In this document: positions 13,654 to 33,600 of the stretch, piece after piece | Layout of the letters: the number at the start of each line of letters is the position of its first letter | How positions within the stretch are numbered: position 1 is the first letter of the stretch | NCBI GenBank assembly: GCA_905221615.1 | Contig: CAJNDT010003391.1 | Location: 94,501-158,500, forward strand | Direction: 5' to 3' | Source of the DNA: Symbiodinium sp. CCMP2592 | Taxonomy: Eukaryota > Sar > Dinophyceae > Suessiales > Symbiodiniaceae | DNA length: 64,000 nt | The notes under the pieces: model-generated | Seen by the model: the letters and a program-made list of their open reading frames with translations, nothing else | The model's database searches: none | What the model was told of the DNA's origin: nothing | Program-made: the position numbers and the translations under genes

Positions 13654-13699
<46 letters not shown>

Positions 13700-13737: not shown

Positions 13738-13818
<81 letters not shown>

Positions 13819-13836
13819 TACTACTACTACTACTAG

Positions 13837-13911
<75 letters not shown>

Positions 13912-14040: not shown

Positions 14041-14054
14041 TATTGTCCTAGTCC

Positions 14055-14637: not shown

Positions 14638-14745
14638 CAGGATGCCCAGTAACCTAGGAAAAAAAGGGCTCCCGTTTTGGTATTGGGTAACTTTATCAGG
14701 AACCTAAGACTACAAAAACGAAATAAGGGTACTACCGGGCCTAAA
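14638..14745. repeat. foldback element, family L
   Basis: Runs from CCAGGATGCCCAGTAACC to GGTACTACCGGGCC. The copies at 15655 and 16611 are cleaner. Confidence 0.65.
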
Positions 14746-15342: not shown

Positions 15343-15443
15343 CTACTTGGAGGATCATGGGTAGTTATACTCTTAATATGGGTTAGAACTACAGTTATCC
15401 TACTTATAACCCAACCTATAAATACCCATGAACCTCGAAGTAG
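15343..15443. repeat. foldback element, family B
   Basis: CTACTTGGAGGATCATGGGT pairs with ACCCATGAACCTCGAAGTAG. Confidence 0.75.
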
Positions 15444-15545
15444 ACCCTAAACCCTATACCCTTATAGAAGCCCTATAGATTCCTTACAAGGGACCCTTGA
15501 AGGAACCCTTATAACTAGCCATGAACCTCCAAGCAGAAGCATCAA

Positions 15546-16076: not shown

Positions 16077-16610
16077 TGCATCGGCTTCCAGAACACCCCG
16101 GAGCCATGGCTTGAGGTCGACTTCCGACCTTACTTGGAGGGTCTTTAGGGGACCCTTTAGGGTACCTTTAAGGGATCTATAAGGGTTCCTTTAAAGGATC
16201 TATAAGGGTTCCTTTAAAGGATCTATGAGGGTTCCTTTAAAGGGATCTATACTTGGAGGGTCGGGGGACTTAGTAACTGGCTGTTTTAAAGACTTATGAG
16301 TACCATAACCCCAATTAGGGTCCCGACTTCCGACAATAGGCGGAAAAAAAAGAAGGAAAAGAGCGGAAGGCGTCAAGGGTTTAGGGTTTATAGGGCTGAA
16401 GGTTGAGGGAATAGGGAGTATGATATTGTATATTACTACCCAAACCGGCAACAGAATGGGTGTAGTGTAGGGTTTCGGGTTTGGGGGTGTGGGGTAGGCT
16501 TCCTTTAAAGAGGTTCCTTTTTGCACAGGTTCACATGGGTACCAGAAAGTTACGAAAGTTAACTCGACTTGGGCTCCTTTACACCGCAAACTATAAAGGC
16601 GACTATTGGG
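16077..16610. other. no confident gene
   Basis: Repeated GGATCTATAAGGGTTCCTTT units lie at 16150-16260, and the 16265-16326 segment repeats 2803-2872. The 129-codon minus frame reads through these repeats and is not supported. Confidence 0.45.
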
Positions 16611-16721
16611 CTAGGATACCCAGTAACCTAAGAATAAAAGGCCTCTCTTTTTGGTATTGGGTAACTTTATAAGGAACCTAGGACTACAAAAAGGGAATAA
16701 GGGTACTGCTGGGCATCCTAG
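16611..16721. repeat. foldback element, family L
   Basis: Near-identical to the copy 956 bp upstream, including the internal TTGGTATTGGGTAACTTTAT. Confidence 0.75.
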
Positions 16722-17249
16722 ATTAGGGTTGCGTCGCTGTTCAACAAGGAAAGAGAGGATCATGAGGGTTCTGGTTTAGGGCTTTGGAGGGTTGAGGGCT
16801 TGCGGTGTTACGTGAAATCGACAGGCATCTCTTTGTCTATTGTTCGGGGGCATCGAGATCTTGATTCCATGACACGCCTGAATTTGGAGTCATGCGGTCA
16901 TGAAGCGGCACCCTAAGCCCAAGGCAGATCTGACCGCCGGACGCCTCCACCCCTGAACTCTGGATCTCGAAAGCCTCTACACTTTACCCTACATGGGGGC
17001 TTCGTAACATCAGGAGCTCCGGTGTCTACGACTTAAGAGTCTTCATATTCAGGATCAGATTCGGGATCCCGCTGCATCTTGCTAGCAACAATGCTACAAG
17101 GAATGTGCGACAATTTTAAGGGGCAAGACTCTGAACAAGGTTAGGTTGTTAAGGCGTAGGGTGTAGGGATGCAATCATAGGCCCTTAGTATGAGCCCTTA
17201 ACCCTGGGATATACCTTATCTGTACCCTTTAGGGTCCTTTCATGGGGTG
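16722..17249. other. no gene seen
   Basis: No exon or repeat array was recognised. Confidence 0.4.
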
Positions 17250-17366
17250 TACATGGAGGTTCATGGGTAGTTATAAGTACGGTTATAAACGTCCCTTAAT
17301 ATGGGTTATAACGGCAGGTATCCTTCTTATCACCTTACTTATAACTACCCATGAACCTGCAAGTAG
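17250..17366. repeat. foldback element, family B
   Basis: TACATGGAGGTTCATGGGTA pairs with TACCCATGAACCTGCAAGTA. Confidence 0.75.
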
Positions 17367-17552
17367 ACCCTAAACCCTATACCCTTATAGAAGCTCTTAG
17401 ATCCCTTAAAAGGGACACTTAAAGGAACCGTTATAACTACCCTTGAACCTCCAAGTAGGGATGGCATTCAGGAGCCCTTAGTATGGGCCCTTCACCCTAG
17501 GATTCTGTGCAATATATGGTCAGGCGTCTGGCGTTCCCAGCCCCCCCCCCCC

Positions 17553-17800
17553 TGTGCCGATACACCCCCAAGGGATACTCCTTGTGAGGAGGTGTATGAC
17601 CAGTTATTCCCTAAGGATCAAAGGGCAGCGCCCTGCACACGGACAGTAGTTGTTTTGTCTTGCTACGCAAGGAGAGCTTGTCTTGTCTCAATATGGTAAA
17701 ACCACTGTGAGCCAATGGGCAGCGGAATGTATATGTATGAGCATGCAGCCATTGCTGTAGGTACCTGTTAGAGCTACCCCTTTAGAGGTTTATGGTTTCA
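17553..17800 (-). repeat. 3' LTR
   Basis: Starts TGTGCCGATACACCCCC and ends GGTTTATGGTTTCA as written on the plus strand, giving TG...CA termini. It lies downstream of all the ORFs, which read on the minus strand. Bases 17559-17598 can form a hairpin (ATACACC with GGTGTAT). Confidence 0.93.
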
Positions 17801-18107
17801 AACAGACACTAATTTTCTTTTACCGGAAGCATGGCCGCACATTCACACATATACTGTTATGCCCACTGTCACAGTTGCGGAGTTTGGACTCATGATAAAA
17901 ACAGCATATTATTTATGCTAGGTATAGCACTGAAGTACACTGCTGAGGACACTCCACTCATTTTGCACACACACTCATGCATGTTGGTCAGAGAGATCAT
18001 CTGTACAAGATCATGTCTGGTGATGTTTTCTACATCGAATTATGCAGCCTTTCACTTTGCTCTTGTTAGAGCTTTGTGAGTCACTGTTGTGAAACTCTGA
18101 GATTCTC
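17801..18107 (-). other. 3' untranslated region of the element
   Basis: About 300 bp between the 1961-codon ORF and the 3' LTR. A purine-rich GGTAAAAGAAAA on the minus strand (about 17813-17824) is the only polypurine-tract candidate. It is a dozen bases from the LTR and not convincing. Confidence 0.5.
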
Positions 18108-21100
18108 TTATCTCAGATTTGGATCCAGGTTTGGATCATAGGCTCGAGCGTAGACGTTCGGATGTGGCTCATCCGGGTCTGAGTGGTCTTCTTCGGAACT
18201 TGAAAAGATTCCGAGTAATCTGTTCTCAGCCCTGGTGAAGGCGGCGTCTGCAGTATCATATCCATGGTTGGATGTTGTCGCCTTTGGCTCGGCCTTTGGA
18301 GCAGCTTGTGAGCTGGCTGGAGTTGCCTTGGCTTTTGCCGGTTGCGGCTGCTTAGCCTTTGCCCGTTCAGCCCTTCTTCTTTCAAGCTGTCCGTCTGAGG
18401 ACGCCCATGATCTTTCACTTTCATCTCCTGAAGGAGATAAGGCGTGGGCATAAAGGCTATTCCAGTACTGTGGTGCAGAAGGAGTTAGGACTTCTTCATT
18501 GTCAGATTCTGACTGGTCTTCCTCAGAGCTTTGGTCGTCAAAGAGTGTCTCGAGGACATTTTTGAGATTGTTATTTCTTCGCTCTATCTCTAGTGAGGAA
18601 TGGACCAATTGGTTAAAGACTGTCCTTGAGTCCTTCAGTGCTGTTAGAAGGATTTCCACTCTGGATAGAGTATCTTGGATGGTGTCAAGATGTTCCTTTC
18701 TTTCCTCCTTGTCTCTCTGGATAGAGCCTCGCAATGCTTGTGCGATTCTGAGGAGGTCTGTGTATTTCGCAAGAGGCATAGTTACCGTTTGATTGTCATG
18801 TATGACAGTTGTTTCGTCGCCGCTTAAGTTCCTGAATAGGACTTCCACGACTGGTAGGAACTCCGTGCTCCACGGTTCCTCTTCATCATATGTTTCTACG
18901 TGCTGTAGCACGCGTTGTGTAAACTGGCCGGCTGCTTCTACCGTTGCATCGATAGAGCTGACGTGTCTTGCTACTATGTTTCGGCACGTAACGTTAATTG
19001 CCTGGCCTTGATTGGCTTCGTCAAGTGCAGCGTCTGCATAGGTGCAGAGTCCACTGTTGTGGGCTTCTCTAGCTGCCTTTCGTTGAATGCGCCGATTTTG
19101 ACCTCCTCTTCTGGTAGGACCTTGTGGTCTTGGAGGATCAGAAGGTACTGTTCCTTTCGCCTTTGGCGGAGGACTCTTAAGTGGAGGTGATATGTTTGCC
19201 TTGTTAGGCCCTGGTGGCATTGCCTTGGGCACTGATGACGATGCGGCACTTGAGAGTGCAGATGTACCTCTGGCCTTTGCCGAGGATCCCTTGGGGATCG
19301 ATGTATAGGTAATCTGCATGGCTTCTTCGGCCATTTGTGCATGCAAGGCATCCTTGAATAATTGTGTCATGTGAGGAGTGTTACTTGCATCATCGTAGGT
19401 CTGGAAGCGCTCAATGTCTCTTTCGGTGCCACGTGGTCGTGTATCACCTCTTTGGAAAGGATCGTTCCTGCGAATCTCCGCAACTTGTACTGCATGGAGG
19501 CAGTTTTTGCACAGCACCTTCTTGCAAACATCTCTTGCTTGCTTGAGCTGGTAACAGCTGTCTGAGAGATGGTAGACTTCGCTTCGGGAAGTATGCCAGA
19601 TAGGTCGCAGATCAGTTGTTTCTCCGGAATTGACCCTGTTGGGTCCTAAAGGTTCACGCGTCTGCGGTTCATCCTCGGGTTCGAGGAATGGAACTCTTTG
19701 GTTCGCTGCTGCTTTTGATTTTGGTTGTTGGCGCTCCATACATCTGATAGGAGGCCTGGTAATCTGCTTCCACATCCAGTGTAAGCCCATTAGCAGCAGG
19801 AACACATTCCACGCGATGCTGAAGACGGAGAAGTCCTGCTCACTGGTTAGTGAGTTTGGAAGTGAAGTTTCATCAGTCTTGGTAGACTCTGCGTTCGCTC
19901 CACCTCGGTTGCGGTGTCCGAACCAGCCCGACAACCCCGCTGCTGTAGCAGCTGTTCTGAGTGCCTTGCCGCTCGGAGCAGACGGTGGACGCGATGCCTT
20001 CCTTCTTCTCCTCCGGCTTGAGGATTCGTCCTCTTGTTCCTCTTCATCTCTCTGAGCAGACATCAAGTTTGATGTTTCTCTTTCGTGTTCTTCGATGTCA
20101 CTTTTTGTTGGTGACGGTTCTTCTTCTAGTCCATCCAGCTCTTCCAAAGACATGTTGAGCTTGTCAACAATATTGGTTCTTTGAGGCCTGGACCTTGATC
20201 TTGGTAGATCTTGTTGTGAAGAGGACGATGATTCCTGGTTCCTTCTTGGAGGAGGACCTTCAGGCTCGCTGGGACGTTCAGGCTGTGGCCACTCCCAGAA
20301 TCTTCCATATCTGTGATGGCTACCTGATGGTTGCGATTTGTCGTACCAGCTGTTGCCGGATGAGTAAACGAATGAATCGTTGTAACCCCAGTATTCAGCA
20401 TTACGCTGCTTGTAAGCCTTTCGCTTGTCAGCGATCTTTTGGACCTGGGCATCTGACCGGTTGTGTTTCCCTTTTGTAAGGATTGGTTGAATCGTGAAGC
20501 CCAAAGGGCTGTGCCAATCTTTGTCAGAGGGACTCAACCATAGGTCAAGGTTAGAAAAAGTTGAATAGTACTGCTTGACTGAGACAAACAGACGGATATC
20601 AATATCCCTGTTGTTGTTCGTGTCCTGCCACATATCTGAGATTCGTTCCCAGTATGTTCTTTCGGCGGCAGGTGTGACCTCTCTTGGACTAGGTGACGCC
20701 GTGTGCGGCGTTTTACTCCAGTCAAGGATATAACTGTTGATACAGTCAAGGTCAGCAACTTTCTTCGCCGGGTCCGCCGGTAGACGATCTGCACGTGCCA
20801 GTCTGTGCTGGTCGGAGTTGTTCAAGCAAAGATGTCGCACTTGTGAGTGCCTTCCTGCTATTTTGTTGAATGCTGCAAGTTTCTTCTCCAGGTATAGAGA
20901 AAACAAACTGTTTCGCGGGTGAACGTCTCCACCTTTTAAGGTGAGCCTCGACGCAATATTATTGAGATCTCCCGCTATTACATCCGGTTTAAAAGGGAGA
21001 ATCTCGTTGAGGAACGCGTTCACCAGTTCGCGTCTCTGTTCTTCCTTATGAGTCATGAACGAGTTGAAATGGACGATCGCGATGGTGATGACCTTGTAAG

Positions 21101-23993
21101 GCCCTTTTGTACACCACATCTCGTCAAGATCGTTCGATGCTTCTTGTGAGAAGATCTCTGCGTATGACTCAAAGTCTTCCTCTGGTGGCTCATCACCCTC
21201 GACATGGCCGTTCCATTCACAGAGAATCGGCGAGGGGTCGAGGTTCGACAGTGTCAGGCACGCCTCTGGTGAGAGGTAAGAGCCATCAGTGGGTCCATCC
21301 TTGTCAGGATTTTTGCCCTTGAGTGGGTCATATCCGATAATCTGCATGAACTCGTCTCTCGTCATCCTTTGGCCAGAATATGGGTGGACCCATTCTTTTG
21401 CCTCTGGTATGGTACTGTGGTACCCAAAGGTGAGGCGGCATACCGCACCGTGGCATGCCCACAGTCGCTTCTTGGGACCACCATTCTTAGGCTTCATTGT
21501 TCGATGACGGTAAAAGTGGTGGACGAGAGCGATGTCTGTTGTTGGGTCACCCTTGACTCCAATATACATCGAGGGTGCCTCAGGCTCCTTGGGAGGAGAA
21601 TGGATTAGCATCCCCCTGTATTCATGTTGTCGCATGGTTGCGATCGAATACTCTGACGCAAGTGCTCCTGCCTCGAGTACGAGGGTAATATGAGCTGAAT
21701 TGTTGAAGCACATGTCAATAAGAGGGTGATAATCGAATCCCTTCTCAGGTTTGAGCTTCTTTTTGGGATTCCCTGCGGGCACCGGCGCTCGATCCATATT
21801 TCCCCAGTTGAATACCACTAGGTTTAGCGATACGCTGTCTGGGTTTGAGCCTTCAATGTATTCTCTCTTCTCATTGACACCGGCCATCCTATTGCGAACT
21901 ATCTCGTAATGTGCGTCGAGCACCAGTTTGTCTTCGTAGCCAGTAAGAGAGAGAAAAGAAGCCGGGTGGCTTGTTCTAGAGTCCTTGATATTGATGTGAC
22001 TCTTGTTAATGCTCTTATATTCCTCCAGGGTTGGAGCCTCTGTGGAGCTGTCATACGTATTCGGAGGATTGTTCCTAATATCATCAAGGCTGCATGGATC
22101 AACGCCTGGATGGTCCTTTTCGAACAGACTTCTTGCGTGTTCGCAATACATGTTGATTTTCTGGACTGCCAAATCTACGTCCTCATGTGTGAGGATGGCC
22201 TCGTATAAAAACTGACGCTCTTCTGAGGTCATTCCTGCTCTCACTTTGGAGGTCTCAAGGCAATCGATTGGCAAGACGCACTCGCACATCCGTTGTTTAC
22301 CCTGTGGGGTAAGTCGACAATCTGCACATACAATCGTTCCACAGGAATAGCAAAAATAGCCTGTAGGCTGTTTGCAGAGATCGCAGAGAGGATTGTCTGG
22401 TCGAGGCAACATTCGTATCCTTTGGTTAAGGCTCATGGCTGTCCTGCGTACTCCTACAAATCTCTCCTTGTTAGGAGGTGCAGAGGAGGAAGATGCCGAC
22501 TCTCTGGGTCTGTCCCACTCCTCTTCGTCAGGAGCCTCAGAATCTTTGATCATGAGTGGACTTCGGATTTTTCGATTCCATCGACTAACCCAGATTCTCT
22601 CTTGCATTTCCTGTTGCATAGCCGGGTTAGACGGTGACTTCGAGATTCGGTGCTTGGTATTTTCTCGAATTCGAGCGCTGATGCGCTCATGTTCTCTTAC
22701 GAGGTCTTCCTCATCAGCAGGCTCCTCGTATTCGAGGTTGAGCTTGCTTCTGTTGACTCGATAATAGGTTTCTGTTTCAGGATCGAAGAGAACTAGGAAT
22801 TTTTCCTTCTCCTTTTTAGGAGATTTTGGTTTTCTTGGCTCTTCGTCTGAGCTCTGAACATATTCTGTTTCAGGCCTTGGTTGGTCAAGTTTGACCTTCT
22901 CAAGTTTCTCTGTGATCTCTTCCGTGGGAGATTCTTTCTTCTCCTCTGACGCTGCAGGTGCAGAGTTCGTCTTGTGAGACGGATTAACATCAACTCGGAG
23001 TTCTGAGGATGACGAAGATTTTGAGCTCTTTTCGCTCTTTTCGCTTGATGCCGACTCAACGTCTGATTCTTCGTCACAATCCTGGTTAGGATCTGGTTCC
23101 TCAGGTTCCGTCTCTGTTCCAGAAGATTCTTCCTTGGGAGGAACTACGTTGGCAGAAGTATCCTGGACAGGTTCTGGAGGTTTGTGACCTGTCGTTATCT
23201 GAAGAACTTCAGTGGCGCTTCTGGTGCCGTCGGAGTTCCAGAGCTGTCCCATAAGACTGTCCGGATCCTTGTCGGCCTCGGCCTGCCGGGCGAGCTTGGA
23301 TCTCGGATGGATCTCCTTTGCAGTAGTCTCCGTTTTCGGAGGTACTTCACCTGCAGAAGCGGTTTGCTCCAGGTTTGGAGCTGTGTCAGTCTCTGTATTT
23401 GGCAGAGAGAAAGACTTCTTGTGAGAAGATCTAGCCTTGGGAGGCTCTGGAGGCAGATTTCGCCTTGACATCTTGCGAAGTGTCGATTCGATCTCTTGGC
23501 CGTAATTTGAGCACCATTTCTTCGACTCGTAAGTCGCTGACGGCATCTGTTCGGAGCAGTGGTCTGCCCACCATGGTCCGATGCTCTTGAGCTCATCGTA
23601 TTGCGATGATACCCAGAGTGTTTCAGAGGGTGCAAATACGGCGCTAAGAGTACGGGCATGCACTACCTCTGGTGTAGCAAACATCCCTGCTTGCGACTGC
23701 CACATGTTTGTGACTTCGTTCACTACGTTATTTGCGTCGAATACTAGAAGCAGTGCCTTGTTGGCACGCAACAAAGTCGGATTAGGATTCGCCAGGTTTA
23801 GCGTTGAAAACTGAACAGTGTCCCTGTTGGAACGACTGTTTTCATTCACGAGAGCTTGAAGACCTGGTGAGGTAACCACCTGCGATAGGAGGTTTGATGG
23901 TACCAGACCATGCCTCAGGATTGAGGATAATGCCTGTAAGTCCGTGGCATGCATGATGTAACAAGGGTTGTTCTGTCGAACAAAATCTTCCAT
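18108..23993 (-). CDS. 1961-codon accessory ORF: ADP-ribosyltransferase-like, zinc and endonuclease-like segments
   Basis: It lies downstream of pol, where env would be. Residues about 10-135 resemble the catalytic half of Tpt1/KptA RNA 2'-phosphotransferases and related ADP-ribosyltransferases: YIMHAT, SILRHGL, VQFST and LLLVFD in the usual order. Residues about 170-500 are low-complexity, Ser/Glu/Pro-rich. About 530-565 is a Cys cluster (CDLCKQPTGYFCYSCG). About 720-1080 resembles exonuclease-endonuclease-phosphatase enzymes: VVFNWGN, LVLEAGA and VIAGDLNN match the Asn, Glu and GD-N positions. About 1390-1416 is one hydrophobic segment (FSIAWNVFLLLMGLHW), followed near 1470-1500 by a Cys/His motif (VYHLSDSC to CKNC). 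The ATG lies two bases after the stop of the preceding ORF, suggesting coupled reinitiation. Domain calls are by eye and the activities are untested. Confidence 0.75.
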   Translation of the reverse strand: MEDFVRQNNPCYIMHATDLQALSSILRHGLVPSNLLSQVVTSPGLQALVNENSRSNRDTVQFSTLNLANPNPTLLRANKALLLVFDANNVVNEVTNMWQSQAGMFATPEVVHARTLSAVFAPSETLWVSSQYDELKSIGPWWADHCSEQMPSATYESKKWCSNYGQEIESTLRKMSRRNLPPEPPKARSSHKKSFSLPNTETDTAPNLEQTASAGEVPPKTETTAKEIHPRSKLARQAEADKDPDSLMGQLWNSDGTRSATEVLQITTGHKPPEPVQDTSANVVPPKEESSGTETEPEEPDPNQDCDEESDVESASSEKSEKSSKSSSSSELRVDVNPSHKTNSAPAASEEKKESPTEEITEKLEKVKLDQPRPETEYVQSSDEEPRKPKSPKKEKEKFLVLFDPETETYYRVNRSKLNLEYEEPADEEDLVREHERISARIRENTKHRISKSPSNPAMQQEMQERIWVSRWNRKIRSPLMIKDSEAPDEEEWDRPRESASSSSAPPNKERFVGVRRTAMSLNQRIRMLPRPDNPLCDLCKQPTGYFCYSCGTIVCADCRLTPQGKQRMCECVLPIDCLETSKVRAGMTSEERQFLYEAILTHEDVDLAVQKINMYCEHARSLFEKDHPGVDPCSLDDIRNNPPNTYDSSTEAPTLEEYKSINKSHINIKDSRTSHPASFLSLTGYEDKLVLDAHYEIVRNRMAGVNEKREYIEGSNPDSVSLNLVVFNWGNMDRAPVPAGNPKKKLKPEKGFDYHPLIDMCFNNSAHITLVLEAGALASEYSIATMRQHEYRGMLIHSPPKEPEAPSMYIGVKGDPTTDIALVHHFYRHRTMKPKNGGPKKRLWACHGAVCRLTFGYHSTIPEAKEWVHPYSGQRMTRDEFMQIIGYDPLKGKNPDKDGPTDGSYLSPEACLTLSNLDPSPILCEWNGHVEGDEPPEEDFESYAEIFSQEASNDLDEMWCTKGPYKVITIAIVHFNSFMTHKEEQRRELVNAFLNEILPFKPDVIAGDLNNIASRLTLKGGDVHPRNSLFSLYLEKKLAAFNKIAGRHSQVRHLCLNNSDQHRLARADRLPADPAKKVADLDCINSYILDWSKTPHTASPSPREVTPAAERTYWERISDMWQDTNNNRDIDIRLFVSVKQYYSTFSNLDLWLSPSDKDWHSPLGFTIQPILTKGKHNRSDAQVQKIADKRKAYKQRNAEYWGYNDSFVYSSGNSWYDKSQPSGSHHRYGRFWEWPQPERPSEPEGPPPRRNQESSSSSQQDLPRSRSRPQRTNIVDKLNMSLEELDGLEEEPSPTKSDIEEHERETSNLMSAQRDEEEQEDESSSRRRRRKASRPPSAPSGKALRTAATAAGLSGWFGHRNRGGANAESTKTDETSLPNSLTSEQDFSVFSIAWNVFLLLMGLHWMWKQITRPPIRCMERQQPKSKAAANQRVPFLEPEDEPQTREPLGPNRVNSGETTDLRPIWHTSRSEVYHLSDSCYQLKQARDVCKKVLCKNCLHAVQVAEIRRNDPFQRGDTRPRGTERDIERFQTYDDASNTPHMTQLFKDALHAQMAEEAMQITYTSIPKGSSAKARGTSALSSAASSSVPKAMPPGPNKANISPPLKSPPPKAKGTVPSDPPRPQGPTRRGGQNRRIQRKAAREAHNSGLCTYADAALDEANQGQAINVTCRNIVARHVSSIDATVEAAGQFTQRVLQHVETYDEEEPWSTEFLPVVEVLFRNLSGDETTVIHDNQTVTMPLAKYTDLLRIAQALRGSIQRDKEERKEHLDTIQDTLSRVEILLTALKDSRTVFNQLVHSSLEIERRNNNLKNVLETLFDDQSSEEDQSESDNEEVLTPSAPQYWNSLYAHALSPSGDESERSWASSDGQLERRRAERAKAKQPQPAKAKATPASSQAAPKAEPKATTSNHGYDTADAAFTRAENRLLGIFSSSEEDHSDPDEPHPNVYARAYDPNLDPNLR

Positions 23994-23995
23994 GC

Positions 23996-25021
23996 CTACG
24001 GGCCTTGGCGCGTTAGTGGAGAGACGCTGTGCATGGACTGCACAGGATTGCTCCCCGTTGCCATGAAGTCTGAGATGGTCATGTGTGACCTTGGCCTCTC
24101 TTCTTCAGGATCTGGTTCTTCAGCTCTTGGTAGAGTTCGTCGTGAACCGTGTCCTCCCACTGCCGAGAGGAAAAGTTTGGTCATGGTCAGCACATTTGCA
24201 TCCGATGGGATGGTAACGGCGGCATCTGTTGTTTCGGCCTTGCCATCTTGGTTATAAACCATAGTGACCACGAACCTGGACTTAGTGTTAAGGAGGACAC
24301 CAAGCGCGATCTCTTGTGGTGTATACTGTGCGAGCTCTGCATCGGCCAACTTGGACATATCCAGAAGATAATTGTGTTGGCCAGCAAAGAGATCTTGGCG
24401 CTGGTTCTGAAGGTGTCTTGTTGAGTGTGCCAACCACCTTCCGACTCTGTTGGTCTTGGAAAGAATGTGGAAGCACATCTCTGGTGAGAGACCTGTTACC
24501 TCTGTCAGTCTTGGCACTGAGGAGGAATAGTCATATTCTCCTGATGCATCAAGACTCACACATTGTTTTACCTCCTGTGGGAGGCCAGTCTGAAGGTGAT
24601 GTGCAAGCATCGTACAAAACTGGCGTGGATCACGAGCGTGATTACCCACGTTGTTATCCCAGTATAAAAGGGGACTGTTGTCCCATGGTCCTTGGAGGAC
24701 TCCTTCATAGAGCCTGACTCCATGTCTGGAGATTGGAGTGAGCCTTGCTCGACTCGCATGGCCACATCGTAAGATCAGGTCAGCAAGATCTCTTGGACGC
24801 GGATTGAACACCTGTTGGTGACCCATGTAAATGTATGGAGGCTCGTTATTTTTCTCACGTTTGTGAAATCGATGTCCACCGTGTTCGGTGTGTCGACGTG
24901 ATGCTTCCCGACGAGACTCGGGGTAAGAGCTATCCATGTGTGGATGTCGCTCATGGTACGCCTGTACTGCCCTGGGTAGGGCGTGTCCATCACGGCTACG
25001 GAAGTTTGATCGTGTGCTCAT
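23996..25021 (-). CDS. 341-codon accessory ORF, possible Tpt1/KptA N-domain-like segment
   Basis: ATG start at 25021 and TAG stop at 23998-23996, then GC, then the ATG of the next ORF in another frame. It starts about 225 bp after the pol stop. The N-terminus is basic and disordered. Residues about 140-210 (HHLQTGLP, CVSLDASGEYDY, RLTEVTGLSPE, RVGRWL) have the spacing of the winged-helix half of Tpt1/KptA enzymes, whose catalytic half appears at the start of the next ORF. This resemblance is weak and could be chance. No signal peptide or membrane segment is seen. It could instead be a structural or nucleic-acid-binding protein of the element. Confidence 0.7.
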   Translation of the reverse strand: MSTRSNFRSRDGHALPRAVQAYHERHPHMDSSYPESRREASRRHTEHGGHRFHKREKNNEPPYIYMGHQQVFNPRPRDLADLILRCGHASRARLTPISRHGVRLYEGVLQGPWDNSPLLYWDNNVGNHARDPRQFCTMLAHHLQTGLPQEVKQCVSLDASGEYDYSSSVPRLTEVTGLSPEMCFHILSKTNRVGRWLAHSTRHLQNQRQDLFAGQHNYLLDMSKLADAELAQYTPQEIALGVLLNTKSRFVVTMVYNQDGKAETTDAAVTIPSDANVLTMTKLFLSAVGGHGSRRTLPRAEEPDPEEERPRSHMTISDFMATGSNPVQSMHSVSPLTRQGP

Positions 25022-25245
25022 TACGGCACGATGACCAAACAGGATCAGGAATGCTTGGTTAGCTCAAAAAGCTGATTGCTGTGAAGCTCGAGGCTGAAAG
25101 CGGCTGCGGATGATACAGAACATATAGTTCTCATGAACATGTCCGATCTTGATGAAAACGCAGCCTGCAGACACAAATTTTCTTTTAGACGAAAAACAGT
25201 CTAAATAGAAAATCCAGCACATGGTTGTGCTACCAGCAAACAAGA
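25022..25245 (-). other. spacer between pol and the accessory ORFs
   Basis: 224 bp with a 63-codon frame of no recognisable content. It is a place to look for a splice acceptor or internal promoter serving the downstream ORFs. Confidence 0.4.
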
Positions 25246-28200
25246 CTACCACCATGTTCCTTGGCAGTAAAATAATCGGTAAATCTCTGTTGAGACATCA
25301 ATTCCAAGGAAGGCTACCGCTGTAGCGGCATTCCTAAGGTTGTCTATGATCCACCGAACAGTGAAAGCTTTATGTTGAAGAAGTTCACGGAAGGGTGGAT
25401 GAATGTCTGTTTCTGGTAAGTTTCCTGTTTCGAGAGCCTTGATAAGCTCATCAGGTTGTGCCGAATGCTTTGTTAATGCATCAGCTAGGCAGTACTTCGA
25501 GCTTACATGAGCTAGGTCATCTAATGATCCAGAGTTGGATTCCTTACGAAGCATCTGTATAAGATGGTGAGTTTCCTTTTGCTCTGGAAGGTGTGTCGTG
25601 CCTGCTGTTGTCACAAGATTGTTCGCATCTGTTCTGATATGTATAGGTACGGTCTCTGATGAGAGATCTGCCCAAAGTCCCTTGAGGAACAGGCAGGTAC
25701 CAAAGCAACGCATCAGTGCGTTAAGCTCTGCCACTGTTGTGGACATTGTGGTTGTCGTAATCTTGTGAGACTCATAATCCACCAGGCTACCTCTCGAGGA
25801 TGTTTCCTTAATAGAGGATTCAGAGAAATCATTCTTCTTGGAAGAAGCAGCTGCTGCTGATTGTTTCATTCCTTTTAGCTTTGGATTTCGATCTTCAGCA
25901 AGGAAAATAACATGTGCTCTCTGAGATGATTTGTCATCATTGTTCCTGTAGGAAGCATCAGGGTAACCGAGGATTCTGAGATTTCCTTTCAGCGGCCAAA
26001 AACGCAATTCTACTTCGGTAGACTTCAAAATCCTAACAAGTTTGTTCAGTTCTCGAATATCACCGATAGTAGGCTTGGCAGCCTTGCTCGCACACCTACT
26101 GAAGCGATAACAGATGTGAGCTTGAGTCCGGCTTTGTAGCCAGTTGATCTGTCCTAAAACACTTCTATAAGCAGTGTGCTGCTGTGGTGTGCATTGTTGC
26201 TCATTGTTGAGCTTCTTGTCAAAAACAATTTCTTCTAGAGCTTCAACAGCTAGGTTCTGATTTACTGAGATATGTGCTGGCACTGATGCTGTAGCATCCT
26301 TCCAGACTAATCTCTGTCCTACAAACATAATATCATTCGTATCTTCAGAACCTACTGCAAATTCCTTTTTGATCGATTCAATCACGGCCTTACGAAAGGT
26401 GTCATCACCGGCCATGCACAGGTCATCTACATGCAAACAGACTACTCCATGTACCTGTCTACCCTTGGCATTGTTGCCTGCTATGGGATCTAGGAGATAG
26501 TCAATCGCTGATTCCATGGTCTTTGGCTGAGACTTCTTGAGCTCAGCATCTGCTGTTGCAGACTTCTTGCCATACAAAACATATGTACAGCGATCCGCAC
26601 GGGTTGGCACCAGGCCATAAGACAGGAGTGCCTTATCAACGATGTTCCACCATCTTCGAGGTGCATCGTTAAGTCCATAAGCGGGTTTCTTCATCCTCGC
26701 TGCAATGTAGGAAGGATAACCTGCTTCAGGAGGAATCTGACAGATTATGTCTCTCGACTCATCATAGGCTTCACCCTGCAGGAAAGCAGTCTTTAGGTCG
26801 ATGTGTGTCAGATTCCACAGCTTGTTAGCTGCTAGTTGAATCGCTAAGCGGAAACCTGGGCGACTCGCAGCAGGACTATCAGTTTGCTGAATGTCCTTCT
26901 GTCGATCCTGGAAACCTCTCAGGACCCATCGGGCCTTGCACTTAAGGAAGTTTCCGTCCTTGTCTCTTTTTAGAGTCAGGACCCATCGACCAGTGACATA
27001 ATTTCGGATGTTTCCGAGTTTCCGTGTATCGACGAGCTCAAAGACATCATTGTCTAGCCAGCTCTGATATTCTGCTGCTTTCGCTTCATCAAACTGTTTC
27101 TTCATCTCACGCTTTTCCTTGGCGGTTGCCTCCTTCCGCTGTGCCTTTTGGGTTAAGTTCACTGAGTTCCTGGGGGAACTTAGAGATAAGGCCTTGTCCT
27201 CTTCCGTGAGAAGATCATACTCTTCACGGATGTCAGATCGAAACCTTTTAGTGGGTTTATACCGTGTTCGGTCTGACCTCACTCTTGATGTTACCTCTCT
27301 GATGTCTACGGGTCCGCCATGCATGTACCGAGGCATGGAGAAAGAACCTGTGTTACTGCACAGTTTCTGTTCTTCTGTGAGAAGGACCCAGTCCTTCTCA
27401 TCTACGACCAAGTCACCTTCCTCATCAGAGTAATACCTTGTGTTTTCTGACTCGGCATCGCTCTCCGGTTCTGGTGAACCAGAAGTGTGAGGAGGAGCGG
27501 ACGGTTGTCCGGGGTCGTCTGGGACCAGTTCTTCTTCAGTGTCTTCTTCATCTTGTTGTAACGGAAGAATGGGTCCCTGTGGATGTGCCTTCGGTTTAGG
27601 TTTTGGTGTCGGCACCTGTGAAGGTGATTTCTGTTTGTGCGGCGAAACTTTCCTTTCCGATGAAGACCTTGGCGACACATCACCCCCCAGACGCCGAGGA
27701 GACGGAACGCGAGGAGGCGGATGCACGCGAGGCTTAGCCCGAGCAGGAGCCACGGGCTCATCGGAGGAAACGGCCGGTAGTCGCGGTGGAGGTATGGGAG
27801 GAGGAGGACGCGACGGCGGCGTGCCGGGAGGCATCGGCTGATCTGGTTCCGGCATAGAAACATCGTCAGATGTGATCCGTGAGCGATTAGTGCTCATTGG
27901 TTCCGACGGGTCTGACGGCGAAACCTCTTCGTCCGACATGATTACATCCGGCGGTGTTCGCACGGACGGTGAAGTCTTGCCGCCTGTCATCTGGAATAGC
28001 ACCCCCGAGAAGGTTGATGGGTGTACTTTGTTCCAGGAAACCTGGTGCGGCAAGCAACACGTCATAGTCGAATTGGGCCTCTTCTTGTTCCAGAAGACAA
28101 GAACGCCATCAGTTACACTGGTGAGTGCTTTAACTGTTCCAAATGTACCTCTGTATAGAGTACACTGTTCGAAACCAGACCCTGGTAAGAGTCTTGATCT

Positions 28201-31200
28201 AAGGCGAGTAATGTCTGACACCAAGGCATCAAGGGACGGTGATGGTTTGGAATGATGCAATGGTAATTCAGTTTTACTCGATAAAGAATTTACTCTAGCA
28301 ACAAGTGATCTGATTTTCGGATCTTGCAGGAGTTTTGAATCCTTGAGAGGATTTGTTGTCAAAAGTGAATACTCCTGATCAAGAAGTTCCGAAAGTCCCT
28401 GGAGGCATTCATCTCCAGAGTATTCTAGTATGTCTGTGACTAAAGACAGATGAGATGCATACGCATCTCGTTTCAGGAATCTTGCCAAACACGAGGCAAA
28501 GGTCTCACAGAATTCATAAGGATACACTTGTGCGAGTTTCGTTTTAAGACCGTAGCCTTGAATACCCTTTTCGTCTCCTGGTGGAGATGTTGGAGATTTC
28601 GTTTTGGCAGAATGTCTCTGGAGAGGAATTAGAACTTGCGGTGGCAAGTTGTGCATAAAAATCGAGGATTTCGATTCATAGTATCCTGTTGGATCTTTCA
28701 TGCCATAGGCCTGTAGGTTACAGACCTCATAGCTGATCTTGTGATTAGAAAACAGGCGTTTTGCTTCTGGTGAAGACCAGAGCCTGCTGTAGTATGGGTT
28801 CTCAAGAACAAAGTAACGTCCGAGCTTCATTTGGTGGTCTGCGACCGATTCACAGAATTTTAAAACAGAAAGTCTCTTGGCAGAGCCTTTCTTCCACTGT
28901 GAGTACCAGCTAGACCACTGAGAATGGTCCGGTGACATAACAATAATAGTAGGTTCTTGTTCCTTGATGATCCTAAGAAGATTGGAGCGACCTTGCGGTT
29001 GCTCAAGATCTAGACCGCTACGCAAATCGACTGGCTGACCTACTCGAAGACCTGACAGGGCAGCTTTGTGACTCATGCGGGGAGATCCGCCGTAGAGTTC
29101 TAGGAAGTCAATCTTCCCAGTGCTGGTGACCTGCCAGTGACACTCTTGATGTGGAATCGTTAGGTCTGTCGACTGCAGGGAAGCATCGAAGGTGACCATG
29201 CAACTTGCGTGGTCAGAACCTTCTGACGTCAGAGTTTCCTCATCAGGCGCGAGAGGAATCTCCACATCAGATGTTATGTCATAGTTTTTCCTCAGTTTTG
29301 AGATATTGACACGGACGATGCGTGTTCCAAGATCCACACCTACCATGGATCCTCCGAGTTCGGAGATCACCTTACCTTTTAGCCAAGATCCATGTTTGGA
29401 CCCAGTGGATCCAATCTTAGACTTATCTTCTGACCAGTAGAAAACCTTATCTCCCAAAGAGAAAGGTCCTTGGGTCATTGACAGTCTGGCTGCAAGATCT
29501 CTACGCAGATCATCAGATTGGCGTGCCTCTTGGTAAGCCCTGTTGGCAAGCTCCTTAATGGCTCTCGCAGTGACTTCCGTATCAGTTGGATTACCTGTCA
29601 ACTGATTGGGATCAGCGTTCTCTGGTGTTATAACATCTCGAGGACGCCTTCCAAAGGCCATTTCTAAAGGAGTAACTCCTCCGTAGGTAATCGAAGAGTT
29701 TCTTGCCAAACATGCTTGGCGAACGAGGTTGCCATACTTCATGGTGATTCCGTTATACTGCGGGTCACCATCCTTCAGGATCTGAAGTATGAGCTTAATC
29801 TGATGCTTCAGCAATCTTACAGCAGCTTCGGCCCTGTTGGGCCATGGTGTTCCAGGTCCTGTTGCCACAGGCTTGATATTCTGCCGATTGTAATAAGCCT
29901 CCATTTTTGGAGTCATGAATGCTTGATCTCCAACTACAACCTTTGGGTTGATCTGAAATTTCTCAAAGTAGTCATTCATAATCGACATTGTAGTATGTTC
30001 TTCTTTATCCTGGACTACTTCGGCAGTCAACAAGTTTGTTGCTCCATCATAGAGAATAAGAAATACTAAGCGACTATCCTTGCCGGGAATTGGAAGCTCA
30101 CCGTGATCTACGAAGGTGAGATCACCGAAAGTCTCTGATCTTAAACCAGAAATCTTCGCTCTCGAAGGAGCTCTCACATGTTCCTGGCAGGCTGAACACT
30201 TTTTGACCAGTTGGTCATATAGCTCATAGATCTCCTTTGGGATCTGTAAGGCTTTTGTGCGTCGCTTGAACTGATCCGTACTCATATGACGGTGCTTAAG
30301 GTGAAGCTTATAGAGTTCTACAGGGTCCTTAAGCTTCTCATGAATCCTGCGAAGAGCAATGGGAAGAGATGGCGATGGTTCTGCGACAATCTCTTCACCT
30401 GTAGGTGAGTCTGTACCAGGAGCCGGGTATTCTCTTGACTCAAGTGGTCTTACCTCCGTCCCGTCATCAGCTCCTGGGACCTTAGACTTCTCTTCAACAG
30501 GAGATTTAACCGCATATTTGCGGGATTTCTTCAGAAGGTTTTTAAGACCCTTTGGAGTCTTTATCTTCGCAGGTGGAACCTCAAGTCTTTCTTCTTCTGG
30601 AGGTTCATGTGGTGCAGAGGATTCTGCAGGTTTGTCCCTAGAGCCTGATGATGGTTCCGATGGTCCGGAAGGCTCAGGAACATCACCAGATGATTCTGGT
30701 GGATCAAGTTTCTTGGCAGATGATTCTGCCGGATCAGATGGAAGAGGCTTCTTTTTCCCTGAAATCCTCTTCGGTGGTGGATCAGCTGCTCCCTCAGGTG
30801 CTTTGTCACAACCCTTGAGGTACGTGTGAGCCTTTTTCTGTCCGGCACAGGCTGGACAGCGACCTTCCGGTATCCTAACATAAGGCTTATTGGCTCCTAG
30901 AGCAGTCTCCGTCGCACTGAACGATGTACCTGACTTAGGAAGGTACTTCCTGGTGGAAGTAAAGCCTAGAAGGTCCAATACCAAATGGTTATTGGTACTA
31001 ATCGGAAGAGGGGTTTTATACAAACCGAAAGCTTCACACGTTGCTAGGTCAGCTGTTGGGCTACACTCGAGGGTCATTCTTAAATTCCTCATCTGTTCGA
31101 TGGAAAACAAAATGGGGACTCTTCCCTGATCCAAAACTTCTATGGTTGTATCTCTTCTTGGAGTTGTGTTAAACCATAGAGTTACACGCTCCTTGATAAG

Positions 31201-31443
31201 AGCTGTTTCACTATCTGCGAAAGAGAACTTCGTGTTCGAAGGTGAAAAAGTGAAATCAATCATGCCTGGGGCATGTTGCTTCACGGCCTTGATAAGCCTG
31301 TTCACCGCATAGCGGGAACCCATAGCCCTAGTACAACCAGAGTCAAGTATGACAAAGGTAGGGCTCTTATCAAGATTGATCCGCTCTGTGAGAGCAGATA
31401 GGACGGTGTGCTGCAACGGAAACACTGCTGTTGCAGTCTCCAC
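25246..31443 (-). CDS. pol: Copia-type pol polyprotein with methyltransferase-like insert
   Basis: Order, with residues counted from the GTG at 31443: aspartic protease DSGC (about 34); integrase zinc site HLKHRH and CSACQEH (about 380-420); integrase core D (FVDHGE, about 445), D (VVGDQAF, about 505) and E (NRAEAAV, about 537); a segment about 780-890 like Rossmann-fold methyltransferases (FLELYGGSP, SPDHSQW, ENPYYSRLW); a Pro/Ser-rich linker; reverse transcriptase from about 1460 with HVDDL for the usual YVDD (about 1670); RNase H (GYPDASY, VAELNAL, RTDANN, about 1825-1990). The frame is open back to 31533, just after a TAG, with no ATG. Pol is in the -1 frame relative to gag, so it is probably made by frameshifting within 31302-31533. 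No perfect slippery heptamer was seen. The stop TAG is at 25248-25246. Confidence 0.92.
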   Translation of the reverse strand: METATAVFPLQHTVLSALTERINLDKSPTFVILDSGCTRAMGSRYAVNRLIKAVKQHAPGMIDFTFSPSNTKFSFADSETALIKERVTLWFNTTPRRDTTIEVLDQGRVPILFSIEQMRNLRMTLECSPTADLATCEAFGLYKTPLPISTNNHLVLDLLGFTSTRKYLPKSGTSFSATETALGANKPYVRIPEGRCPACAGQKKAHTYLKGCDKAPEGAADPPPKRISGKKKPLPSDPAESSAKKLDPPESSGDVPEPSGPSEPSSGSRDKPAESSAPHEPPEEERLEVPPAKIKTPKGLKNLLKKSRKYAVKSPVEEKSKVPGADDGTEVRPLESREYPAPGTDSPTGEEIVAEPSPSLPIALRRIHEKLKDPVELYKLHLKHRHMSTDQFKRRTKALQIPKEIYELYDQLVKKCSACQEHVRAPSRAKISGLRSETFGDLTFVDHGELPIPGKDSRLVFLILYDGATNLLTAEVVQDKEEHTTMSIMNDYFEKFQINPKVVVGDQAFMTPKMEAYYNRQNIKPVATGPGTPWPNRAEAAVRLLKHQIKLILQILKDGDPQYNGITMKYGNLVRQACLARNSSITYGGVTPLEMAFGRRPRDVITPENADPNQLTGNPTDTEVTARAIKELANRAYQEARQSDDLRRDLAARLSMTQGPFSLGDKVFYWSEDKSKIGSTGSKHGSWLKGKVISELGGSMVGVDLGTRIVRVNISKLRKNYDITSDVEIPLAPDEETLTSEGSDHASCMVTFDASLQSTDLTIPHQECHWQVTSTGKIDFLELYGGSPRMSHKAALSGLRVGQPVDLRSGLDLEQPQGRSNLLRIIKEQEPTIIVMSPDHSQWSSWYSQWKKGSAKRLSVLKFCESVADHQMKLGRYFVLENPYYSRLWSSPEAKRLFSNHKISYEVCNLQAYGMKDPTGYYESKSSIFMHNLPPQVLIPLQRHSAKTKSPTSPPGDEKGIQGYGLKTKLAQVYPYEFCETFASCLARFLKRDAYASHLSLVTDILEYSGDECLQGLSELLDQEYSLLTTNPLKDSKLLQDPKIRSLVARVNSLSSKTELPLHHSKPSPSLDALVSDITRLRSRLLPGSGFEQCTLYRGTFGTVKALTSVTDGVLVFWNKKRPNSTMTCCLPHQVSWNKVHPSTFSGVLFQMTGGKTSPSVRTPPDVIMSDEEVSPSDPSEPMSTNRSRITSDDVSMPEPDQPMPPGTPPSRPPPPIPPPRLPAVSSDEPVAPARAKPRVHPPPRVPSPRRLGGDVSPRSSSERKVSPHKQKSPSQVPTPKPKPKAHPQGPILPLQQDEEDTEEELVPDDPGQPSAPPHTSGSPEPESDAESENTRYYSDEEGDLVVDEKDWVLLTEEQKLCSNTGSFSMPRYMHGGPVDIREVTSRVRSDRTRYKPTKRFRSDIREEYDLLTEEDKALSLSSPRNSVNLTQKAQRKEATAKEKREMKKQFDEAKAAEYQSWLDNDVFELVDTRKLGNIRNYVTGRWVLTLKRDKDGNFLKCKARWVLRGFQDRQKDIQQTDSPAASRPGFRLAIQLAANKLWNLTHIDLKTAFLQGEAYDESRDIICQIPPEAGYPSYIAARMKKPAYGLNDAPRRWWNIVDKALLSYGLVPTRADRCTYVLYGKKSATADAELKKSQPKTMESAIDYLLDPIAGNNAKGRQVHGVVCLHVDDLCMAGDDTFRKAVIESIKKEFAVGSEDTNDIMFVGQRLVWKDATASVPAHISVNQNLAVEALEEIVFDKKLNNEQQCTPQQHTAYRSVLGQINWLQSRTQAHICYRFSRCASKAAKPTIGDIRELNKLVRILKSTEVELRFWPLKGNLRILGYPDASYRNNDDKSSQRAHVIFLAEDRNPKLKGMKQSAAAASSKKNDFSESSIKETSSRGSLVDYESHKITTTTMSTTVAELNALMRCFGTCLFLKGLWADLSSETVPIHIRTDANNLVTTAGTTHLPEQKETHHLIQMLRKESNSGSLDDLAHVSSKYCLADALTKHSAQPDELIKALETGNLPETDIHPPFRELLQHKAFTVRWIIDNLRNAATAVAFLGIDVSTEIYRLFYCQGTWW

Positions 31444-33113
31444 ACCTTGCCCCTCGGATGGTTCAAAACCTGGGGCACGTAACTCACTGATGAGTTGTAC
31501 ACGGGTTCTTGGTGCGCGCTCGGATCTGTGCCTCTACCTGATGATCCTGCTTGATTTCTTCTCTTCTTTTTCCGTGTCTTTCTTCGTGAGGCTTGTGATG
31601 CATAGTATGTATAAGACGTTTGATCGTCATAAGCGGCATAATTCCAACTGGAGTCAGTATAATAACTGTCCTCATACCATGAATCCCAGCTCGGTGCGGT
31701 GGAACTTTCATAGGCCTGTGGAGATCCAGTTTGGTCTCCTTGTAAGGAGGCAGACTTAGCTGTATCCTTACCTTTGCCTTTTGATTTTGTACCCTTGAAG
31801 GAGCTTCCTTTATCTCCTTTGTCCTTTCCTTTTCCTTTGCCTTTTCCACCTTTTCCTTTTTCTTTTCCTTTACCTTTACCGAAATAGCTGGAATCAGTTG
31901 GATCATGTTCTGCCTGGTTGGCTCTCCCTTTTCCGCGGTATGACCTAAAACGGCCACGTCCTTTTCGCTTGCCACCCTTTGCTCTTCCCGGTGATCCGGG
32001 ACGCATTCTTGGTCTTCTTCCCTTTTTGAATCTCCTTGCAACGAAGGCTTCATGGTCGTCAACTGTCCAGAAGACAGCTTCTTCATCCTCGGCGGCAAGA
32101 AAGCCTTCCTCAAGGGTGTCTTCGTCTTGGAGCCAGAATCCGTCGACTCCGTCGTATTCACCCTGATCGAGGATGAGGAAGTTTCGACCTCCGCGTTTGC
32201 GGCGTTGATCTCTCCTTCCATGGCGGTCCTTCTTGTGAGAAGTGTGCCGAATATTGGGATCCTGCAGACCAGTTCTGGTCGTTGAGAACTGATCGAACAT
32301 GGTCTGCCGTACCACAGGGTACGTGTAGGTCTCAATTCGGTAACCTTGGTTGGTCAATGCTGTTACCAACCTCTCACGTTGCATCTCATTTAGGTCGGAC
32401 TGCACTAGGAAGAGGAGAGCTAGGAGATTATCATTTAGAGGAAACGCTCTTCGATGATTATCAAGGCGTTCCTTGTTCCATGTTTCGAAGAAACGTGCGG
32501 CGTATGTGTCTCTCTCGGTTGCATCCTGTAGGCGCAAGAAGGTTTGATCTGCCTGCACAGCCTGCATGAAATCCGGATGGGCATCTTCCAGAGCTATCTC
32601 TGGTAAGAGATCCATCCATGAGTTTCTCACGCGCTGTAGCACGATCTCAAACTTAGCAATCCAAGTCACAAAGTCTTGGTTGCCCTTCCATGCCTTGAAT
32701 AGGCCGAGGAAACGCCACAGGAAAACGTACTGTTCTCCTTTCACGAAAAATGGACGCATCTTCTTCTTGAAGTAATCTACTCCATCTGGGGCTGCAAGCC
32801 TTTCTCGGTTGAGTGATTCTTTTTGTACTGCGGCCAATCCGGAGAGCCTCGTCTTGAGAGACGGACCTCTTTTGGTGTCATCCAGCGTTGTTATGTCGCA
32901 CCAGTCGTCAATCAACTGTTCATACTCAAACCACGAAGTGGTGCCATCATAGGCAGGCGCGATCTTAGGCGTTATGCCTAATGATGCAAGCATGCGGTCA
33001 GATGTTGCATATGACTGTGCGACATAAGTAGCTGGACCTTGGGAGGTCTCTTCGTTCTCATATCCCCCGGAGGATTGGGAACTGCCGTCGGCTTCGCTAT
33101 GCGAGCTCGACAT
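31302..33113 (-). CDS. gag: gag-like protein
   Basis: 603 codons with an ATG at 33113, 102 bp inside the 5' LTR. Residues about 50-210 form the capsid-like part (SWFEYEQLIDDWCDITTLDD, KPF-type KKKMRPFFVKGE, LWRFLGLFKAWKG), in the style of gag proteins I associate with Symbiodinium-type Copia elements. The C-terminal third is basic and Lys/Gly-rich (KGKGKGKDKGDKG), probably RNA-binding. A complete CCHC zinc knuckle is not present; only CFRCS is seen near the end. The last 142 bp overlap the start codon region of pol in another frame. Confidence 0.85.
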   Translation of the reverse strand: MSSSHSEADGSSQSSGGYENEETSQGPATYVAQSYATSDRMLASLGITPKIAPAYDGTTSWFEYEQLIDDWCDITTLDDTKRGPSLKTRLSGLAAVQKESLNRERLAAPDGVDYFKKKMRPFFVKGEQYVFLWRFLGLFKAWKGNQDFVTWIAKFEIVLQRVRNSWMDLLPEIALEDAHPDFMQAVQADQTFLRLQDATERDTYAARFFETWNKERLDNHRRAFPLNDNLLALLFLVQSDLNEMQRERLVTALTNQGYRIETYTYPVVRQTMFDQFSTTRTGLQDPNIRHTSHKKDRHGRRDQRRKRGGRNFLILDQGEYDGVDGFWLQDEDTLEEGFLAAEDEEAVFWTVDDHEAFVARRFKKGRRPRMRPGSPGRAKGGKRKGRGRFRSYRGKGRANQAEHDPTDSSYFGKGKGKEKGKGGKGKGKGKDKGDKGSSFKGTKSKGKGKDTAKSASLQGDQTGSPQAYESSTAPSWDSWYEDSYYTDSSWNYAAYDDQTSYTYYASQASRRKTRKKKRRNQAGSSGRGTDPSAHQEPVYNSSVSYVPQVLNHPRGKVWRLQQQCFRCSTPSYLLSQSGSILIRALPLSYLTLVVLGLWVPAMR

Positions 33114-33215
33114 TGTGCTGCCTCTTATCCGCTTGGTTAAGCGTTCGGCGAGGCCGACCGCTGTAGCGGACTTTGTGAGGCGGGCGGCCCTTTCCGGGCT
33201 CCGCTACCAGAAAAC
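33114..33215 (-). promoter_or_regulatory. leader with primer-binding site
   Basis: The minus strand next to the 5' LTR reads GTTTTC and then TGGTAGCGGAGCCC (33209-33196). This is complementary to a tRNA 3' end of the form GGGCTCCGCTACCA, similar to initiator methionine tRNA, a common Copia primer. The spacer of six bases is a little longer than usual. Confidence 0.65.
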
Positions 33216-33463
33216 TGTGCCGATACACCCCCAAGGGATACTCCTTGTGAGGAGGTGTATGACCAGTTATTCCCTAAGGATCAAAGGGCAGCGCCCTGCA
33301 CACGGACAGTAGTTGTTTTGTCTTGCTACGCAAGGAGAGCTTGTCTTGTCTCAATATGGTAAAACCACTGTGAGCCAATGGGCAGCGGAATGTATATGTA
33401 TGAGCATGCAGCCATTGCTGTAGGTACCTGTTAGAGCTACCCCTTTAGAGGTTTATGGTTTCA
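33216..33463 (-). repeat. 5' LTR
   Basis: Identical to 17553-17800. It should contain the promoter and the transcript start. No clear TATA box was seen. Confidence 0.93.
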
Positions 33464-33515
33464 CCCCCCCCCCCCCCAATGGTATGGTCTGCTAGGGTGG
33501 GGGGGGGGGGGGGGG
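33464..33515. repeat. C14 ... G17 homopolymer hairpin at the insertion site
   Basis: A 14-C run directly follows the 5' LTR and a 17-G run lies at 33499-33515. With the 12 C at 17541-17552 on the other side, the retrotransposon split the C-stem of a C/G foldback. Confidence 0.85.
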
Positions 33516-33600
33516 CTGGCGTGTGCGGACAGGGGTCGGAGCCGTTGGAGCTGTCACTGGATGGTGGATGGTGCTGGCGGCCAGGGCTCACACGCAAGCC
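33516..33600 (-). CDS. candidate exon, unknown protein
   Basis: The minus-strand frame reads VSPGRQHHPPSSDSSNGSDP and then CPHTPAPP into the homopolymer. The codon choice looks coding but splice sites are unclear. Confidence 0.25.

Follow-up and report, generated by a model that had tools for sequence, protein, structure and literature searches.

What does a Ty1/Copia retrotransposon do with a long stretch of coding sequence beyond pol, and is that sequence really its own? The question is raised by 64,000 nucleotides of the genome of the dinoflagellate Symbiodinium sp. CCMP2592 (contig CAJNDT010003391.1, positions 94,501 to 158,500), here called the window, whose minus strand holds a long terminal repeat (LTR) retrotransposon of 15.9 kb (17553..33463; all positions are those of the window). 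An earlier note, made from the letters alone, had described a Copia-type element of giant size whose env position holds additional coding capacity, and this description is supported. The best explanation for the results presented below is a young, multicopy family of giant Ty1/Copia elements of Symbiodinium, which would encode a Gag-Pol polyprotein and one huge accessory protein. In addition, the family inserts into runs of G, with its coding strand on the G strand and thus in one orientation. Both ends of the element adjoin such G-runs, a feature that the earlier note had missed.

In the window, a run of 14 G on the coding strand precedes the element (33464..33477, minus strand), its final 5 G presumably being one copy of the target duplication, and a run of 12 G follows it (17541..17552, minus strand). 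The generality of this arrangement comes from a survey of 41 insertions, namely the window copy and 40 of the 83 copies scored through their accessory part, hand-picked for having enough room on their contigs. The 5′ flank was readable in 33 of these copies and the 3′ flank in 38. On the coding strand, the 5′ flank closes with 4 or more G in 30 of 33 copies, and with 8 or more in 23 of them, compared with a single flank that ends in at least 4 C; another exception on this side, copy C546b, adjoins a GGGGGT repeat. On the other side, 30 of 38 3′ flanks start with at least 4 G. The remaining eight belong to copies C291, C3223, C3824, C4645, C413, C3613, C1724, and C4973; in C1724 and C4973 the flank starts with AGGGG, and in C3824, C4645, and C3613 it is C-rich. 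A smaller set, the outer flanks at the first eight LTR loci (six insertions, two of them also among the 40), is G-rich in all eight cases. As for the background, G-runs of at least 8 make up 0.145% of the bases in the rest of the window, and C-runs 0.22%, a figure that includes the two runs beside the insertion.

The short, fixed target duplication that is expected of a Ty1/Copia element is also found. The 5-mers at the two flanks are equal in 24 of 31 copies (GGGGG in 21, AGGGG in 2, and CCCCC in 1) and unequal in 7, a duplication length of 5 bp being proved within G-runs only where it reads AGGGG or where an A follows. This following base is A in 15 of 38 copies. The two marks of a target-sequence-specific retroelement, a single class of target sequence and a fixed orientation, are thus both present in this family.

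Ordinary Copia elements behave differently. Six from this genome, found with P0006 (the best 28 of 5529 candidates were scored), served as controls: two from the head of the list plus four others, none belonging to a sister family. They measure 7.15-7.3 kb, their LTRs match over stretches of 175-210 bp, and their primer site reads TGGTAGCGGAGC. G-run flanks are absent from all six, which by eye show ordinary 5-bp duplications. The difference in 5′ flanks (30 of 33 versus 0 of 6) has a Fisher p of 2.6e-5, or 3.0e-5 when one duplicated insertion is removed.

The state of the target before insertion can be read from two paralogous loci, each of which is empty where the other is occupied. Copy C1680 has flanks that are paralogous to those of the window copy over 358 bases at 91%, 47 bases at 98%, and 40 bases at 100%. 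At the C1680 locus, the target of the window copy is uninterrupted and consists of 23 G followed by CTGGGAACGCC; reciprocally, the C1680 target is uninterrupted in the window, with 17 G followed by CTGGC. The occupied window site, with its 14 and 12 G, amounts to 21 G once one 5-bp duplication is subtracted. As the runs are unbroken at both empty sites, they predate the insertions. The host segment at the window insertion (33464-33520 and 17500-17552) is itself duplicated and has a hairpin-like arrangement in which an 18-base spacer separates a C-run from a G-run; the C1680 paralogue bears its own insertion in the opposite run (loci L050 and L090).

The earlier note had named its own refutation: with a chance capture of downstream sequence, other copies would end after pol. 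None of the 20 copies sampled for this purpose does so, and the refutation fails. The genome searched comprises 1.098 Gb in 5383 contigs. With the LTR as query, the best 41 of 972 first-look candidates were scored, 40 of them at 100%; with the nuclease-like stretch of the accessory gene, the best 83 of 978 (all at 99-100%); and with the reverse transcriptase (RT) part, the best 121 of 3002 (all at 100%). Among the matches listed, 44 of the 121 RT copies have an accessory match at the expected distance and 77 have none. Twenty copies were drawn at random from the 75 of these 77 whose expected place lies beyond base 3000, and 739-801 bases were read at that place in each. The accessory gene is there in all 20, and none stops after pol. 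Nineteen match it at 97-99.8% across the whole stretch; the last, L131 on contig C427, shows 88.7% DNA identity over 635 bases in this part and 100% identity in its RT protein, and is perhaps a mosaic between subfamilies. In total, the gene is observed in at least 103 copies (83 scored and 20 sampled).

The gene is also represented in other records, where homologues of its product (P0001, P0002, P0007, and P0008) have 57-65% identity over the matched part. Two matching proteins carry the name of Symbiodinium sp. CCMP2592 itself, one with 97% identity across 25% of the query and the other with 94% across 20%. P0003 and P0004 are CCMP2592 gene models that mix pieces of the element with other sequence, one of them being named BSL3 and having a Metallophos domain; the element is thus partly annotated as host exons.

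Variation among the copies points in the same direction. Ranking copies by protein similarity depresses the ratio of changing to synonymous polymorphism (pN/pS) inside the query, so only counts from outside the query or from copies chosen by their RT are used here. In the 30 best-ranked copies, including that of the window, variants shared between copies outside the query part number 32 synonymous and 10 changing (pN/pS 0.13, p 2.8e-10), and singletons 42 and 15 (0.14, p 3e-12). In the 19 RT-chosen copies that are left when the diverged L131 is omitted, shared accessory variants number 18 and 10 (0.22, p 8.5e-5), and singletons 13 and 11, with a stop in addition (0.34, p 0.01). With L131 included, the ratio is 0.19-0.22 for shared variants and 0.49-0.56 for singletons. 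All of these p-values are optimistic because the copies are related. Judged from these counts, the accessory gene is under purifying selection, with a pN/pS of 0.13-0.22 for shared variants. Many copies, purifying selection, and homologues at 57-65% identity together argue for a maintained gene and against capture by chance.

The reading frames of the family are simpler than those of the window copy. The commonest open frame around the RT has 2652 codons (19 of 121 scored copies), a length from which gag and pol are inferred to lie in one frame, and the commonest around the accessory part has 2321 codons (25 of 83 scored copies); in both lists, the majority of copies have other, mostly shorter frames. 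In the window, gag (603 codons, 31302..33113) and pol (2065 codons when counted from its first listed start, 25246..31533) are separate frames, and the accessory gene is split into a first part (a 1026-bp open reading frame, or ORF, of 341 codons, 23996..25021) and a second (a 5886-bp ORF of 1961 codons, 18108..23993), which in the homologues is in frame with the first; all four are on the minus strand. P0001, P0002, and P0004 continue uninterrupted across the boundary between the two. Since the commonest copies and the homologues hold a single frame, there is one accessory gene and not two, as the earlier note had it, and the family appears from its frames to consist of two genes, gag-pol and the accessory gene. 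By comparison with this type, both genes of the window copy are out of frame. Thus, of the description "intact gag and pol," the presence of both frames stands and their integrity does not. The LTRs of the window copy are identical, and for this reason its frame breaks may be the product of sequencing or assembly error as readily as of decay. The possibility of a -1 frameshift from gag into pol was set aside because the commonest copies have a single frame. Two copies, C4929 and C5034, exceed the family type, with frames of 3814 and 3989 codons around the accessory part; in these, pol and the accessory gene may share one frame.

The accessory protein had been described as carrying ADP-ribosyltransferase-like, zinc-cluster, and endonuclease-like segments and one membrane span. 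The zinc cluster is supported as a B-box zinc finger (22311..22400, minus strand): the excised piece scores 24.9 bits against the PF00643 cutoff of 24.1, and the whole ORF scores 21.8, below it. Judged by family cutoffs, the B-box is the sole supported domain of the protein, and for the excised piece only. In effect, among Pfam and PDB profile searches directed at the endonuclease, the pol methyltransferase, and the Tpt1-like part, nothing else rose above a cutoff. The family of Tpt1/KptA RNA 2′-phosphotransferases has the ADP-ribosyltransferase fold, and a stretch similar to it opens the second accessory ORF (23670..23969, minus strand). Its scores for PF01885 are 16.2 bits (E 0.011) for the window piece and 15.1 (E 0.025) for P0001, both under the cutoff of 26, so the ADP-ribosyltransferase-like segment is to be taken as a weak lead.

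The endonuclease-like segment was not confirmed. It coincides with the best-conserved stretch of the gene (20481..21848, minus strand), where the motifs NWGNM, GDLNN, and DKDWH are visible by eye, which we take to recall endonucleases of the long interspersed nuclear element (LINE) type. In an alignment of three sequences, NWGNM and GDLNN are invariant and DKDWH is not. Exo_endo_phos (PF03372) is absent from the Pfam matches of the accessory piece at E<=10. No nuclease of that kind came from a PDB profile search of this piece either. The mean predicted local distance difference test score (pLDDT) of AlphaFold2 is 30.8 for the B-box and nuclease-like part and 34.0 for the Tpt1-like part, values too low to support a fold for either. 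As for the membrane span, a conserved hydrophobic stretch is indeed present at residue 1388 (19776..19832, minus strand); with a maximum mean hydropathy of 1.56, its character as a span is borderline.

The other family-specific part is a conserved insert in pol, between the integrase and the RT (about residues 765-990, 28474..29151, minus strand). It resembles a degenerate methyltransferase by eye only: motifs of this kind can be picked out in it and also in P0006, with CPPC and EHP. Neither the window piece nor the P0006 region matches any Pfam family, DNA_methylase included, and the PDB profile search found no methyltransferase for the insert. Scans of IMG/VR revealed no relatives of either the insert or the nuclease-like part of the accessory protein.

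How could such an element find G-runs? Replication would be primed by a transfer RNA (tRNA), as in other Copia elements, and insertion would be carried out by the element's own Copia integrase, leaving 5 bp of the target duplicated. One or both of the family-specific parts, namely the B-box-bearing accessory protein and the insert in pol, would travel with the integration complex and would bind or open G-runs asymmetrically. The integrase complexes of LTR elements and retroviruses are normally indifferent to the orientation of insertion, and a symmetric complex has no reason to favor one; hence, an asymmetric partner is wanted. Steering of this sort would account for insertion that is sequence-selective and orientation-locked, unlike that of the six ordinary Copia elements. 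On balance, it is somewhat probable that the accessory protein and/or the pol insert steers the integrase to G-runs, and in our opinion the accessory protein is the likelier of the two. A more specific version can be put forward only tentatively, namely that the 2,321-codon accessory product works with an ordinary Copia integrase by recognizing G-runs and loading the ends of the complementary DNA asymmetrically. The run would perhaps be recognized as a G-quadruplex or another unusual form of DNA.

Several points weigh against this reading. The targeting role of the accessory protein is putative, and the protein has no confidently identified domain besides the B-box; targeting could instead fall to the pol insert or to a host protein sitting on G-runs. 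The controls are few and do not represent a sister family, so that differences in the accessory gene and in the pol insert are confounded. Among the insertions themselves, C4645 is flanked by a C-run at either end, in C5112 the 5′ side is C-rich and the 3′ side a G-run, and the seven copies with unequal 5-mers are C291, C3223, C3824, C413, C546b, C3613, and C5112. C4645, C5112, C3824, and C3613 could be rare reverse insertions, or the results of later rearrangement or of assembly joins. Finally, the insertions are partly non-independent: the 5′ flanks of C724 and C943 are identical, and repeats are shared by several others.

The alternative that survives best, possible though rather doubtful, accepts the same insertion into G-runs and assigns targeting to integrase/Pol (with its insert) alone or to some host protein that binds G-runs. 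Another job would then be left to the accessory protein, such as RNA processing, nuclear entry, or anti-silencing, and its weak match to Tpt1/KptA hints at the first of these. Over residues 735-1110 of pol, the homologue P0005 shows 82% identity, and a tblastn comparison with two control elements, covering part of their sequence, gave no match to the insert. Moreover, the targeting of LTR elements such as Tf1 uses host DNA-binding proteins, according to the excerpts available from one paper (PMC3706591). Nevertheless, a host factor nearby would not obviously fix both the position and the orientation of the insertion within the run.

It is quite unlikely that the accessory gene is env-like and serves passage from cell to cell, the G-run pattern having some other cause. 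Its location after pol and its conserved hydrophobic stretch would fit an envelope gene, but the hydropathy is borderline, and an envelope protein would not be expected to have a B-box and a Tpt1-like stretch. The Pfam results include no env family. Highly unlikely, in turn, is an explanation in which the pattern reflects the survival of harmless insertions, or an artifact of assembly or end addition, instead of a choice of target. Homopolymer runs are hard to assemble, and the flanks do switch from G to C across C3824 and C3613 and from C to G across C5112. However, neither survival nor artifact would readily leave all six controls free of the pattern, produce an orientation bias of 30 to 1 together with a preference for A after the duplication, or place unbroken G-runs at the paralogous empty sites. 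Chance capture by the window copy alone has in its favor only that no cellular relative of the accessory gene was identified, and it is practically negligible in view of the at least 103 copies with the gene, 20 of 20 sampled RT-chosen ones among them, the purifying selection, and the 57-65% homologues.

Compared with known systems, the preferred reading, in which the element's own accessory protein and/or pol insert guides integration, describes a mixture of familiar and unfamiliar features. The giant element shares its LTRs, primer site, integrase ahead of RVT_2, and 5-bp duplication with Ty1/Copia elements (Pseudoviridae), including the 7-kb Copia of the same genome. It differs from the ordinary ones in its length (15.9 kb against the 7.15-7.3 kb of the six controls), its 2,321-codon accessory frame, its pol insert, and its one-orientation G-run targets. 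LTR elements and retroviruses usually select chromatin or host factors over simple DNA sequence, and targeting of G-runs in one orientation is very unusual for LTR/Copia elements. Literature searches, with subscription papers outside their scope, returned no report of an LTR element that targets G-runs, which leaves its unpublished status unproven.

Additional genes as such have precedents. In the text available from one study, plant LTR retrotransposons carry sense ORFs between pol and the 3′ LTR, in many copies and of env-like type (PMC7264820). The giant element likewise has an extra sense gene in the env position in many copies; unlike the plant ORFs, it encodes a B-box protein that exceeds 2,000 residues, and the same portion of that study describes no linked choice of target. 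Bdelloid rotifer LTR retrotransposons have an enzymatic ORF3, an esterase or a DEDDy exonuclease, in the part of the report available (PMC5408684); they too gained non-envelope genes after pol, and both the ORF3 enzymes and the elements differ from those seen here. Within Symbiodinium, excerpts of another paper present SymbioLINE-Dnmt and SymbioDIRS-Dnmt3, a LINE and a DIRS retroelement with methyltransferases, and state that the Copia superfamily lacks any DNA methyltransferase (DNMT) domain (PMC5890265). The giant element resembles these two in being a Symbiodinium retroelement with extra domains and differs in its order and in a pol insert that has no Pfam methyltransferase match.

Target choice, on the other hand, is better known from other retroelements. 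A 2013 paper, in the passages available, considers target-sequence-specific integration almost exclusive to non-LTR retrotransposons, such as R1, R2, and those that target telomeres or microsatellites (PMC3706591). These elements also insert into one class of repeated sequence, whereas the giant element has LTRs and duplications of the integrase type. The family offers a natural case of an integration machinery that reads both local sequence and strand, and raises a testable question as to which part of which protein reads the G-run. If the accessory-protein reading is true, this would be an LTR retrotransposon with an acquired targeting protein of its own; in any case, an LTR element maintains here a gene almost as large as gag-pol. 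For annotation, the CCMP2592 gene models P0003 and P0004 are a warning, as pieces of the element are contained in them.

The remaining anatomy is that of a Ty1/Copia element. The two identical 248-bp LTRs claimed earlier are confirmed, with the 5′ LTR at 33216..33463 and the 3′ LTR, of the same sequence, at 17553..17800 (minus strand), and both have TG...CA ends. The putative primer-binding site, also claimed earlier, was found again just inside the 5′ LTR, from which six bases separate it, as TGGTAGCGGAGCCCGG (33194..33209, minus strand); its opening 12 bases are likewise there in all six control elements. In pol, Pfam places RVT_2 at residues 1465-1624 (62.9 bits against a cutoff of 31.6) and a weak integrase core, rve, at residues 444-533 (15.1 bits against 32.6). 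The integrase thus lies ahead of an RT of the RVT_2 type, which is the Copia order. The protease, zinc (HHCC), DDE, and RNase H motifs of pol were identified by eye. In the rest of the window (1-17552 and 33464-64000), no tRNA gene was found and no Rfam family reached its gathering score; these parts contain many short telomere-like arrays of CCCTAAA/TTTAGGG as well as tandem repeats of 9 and 15 bases.

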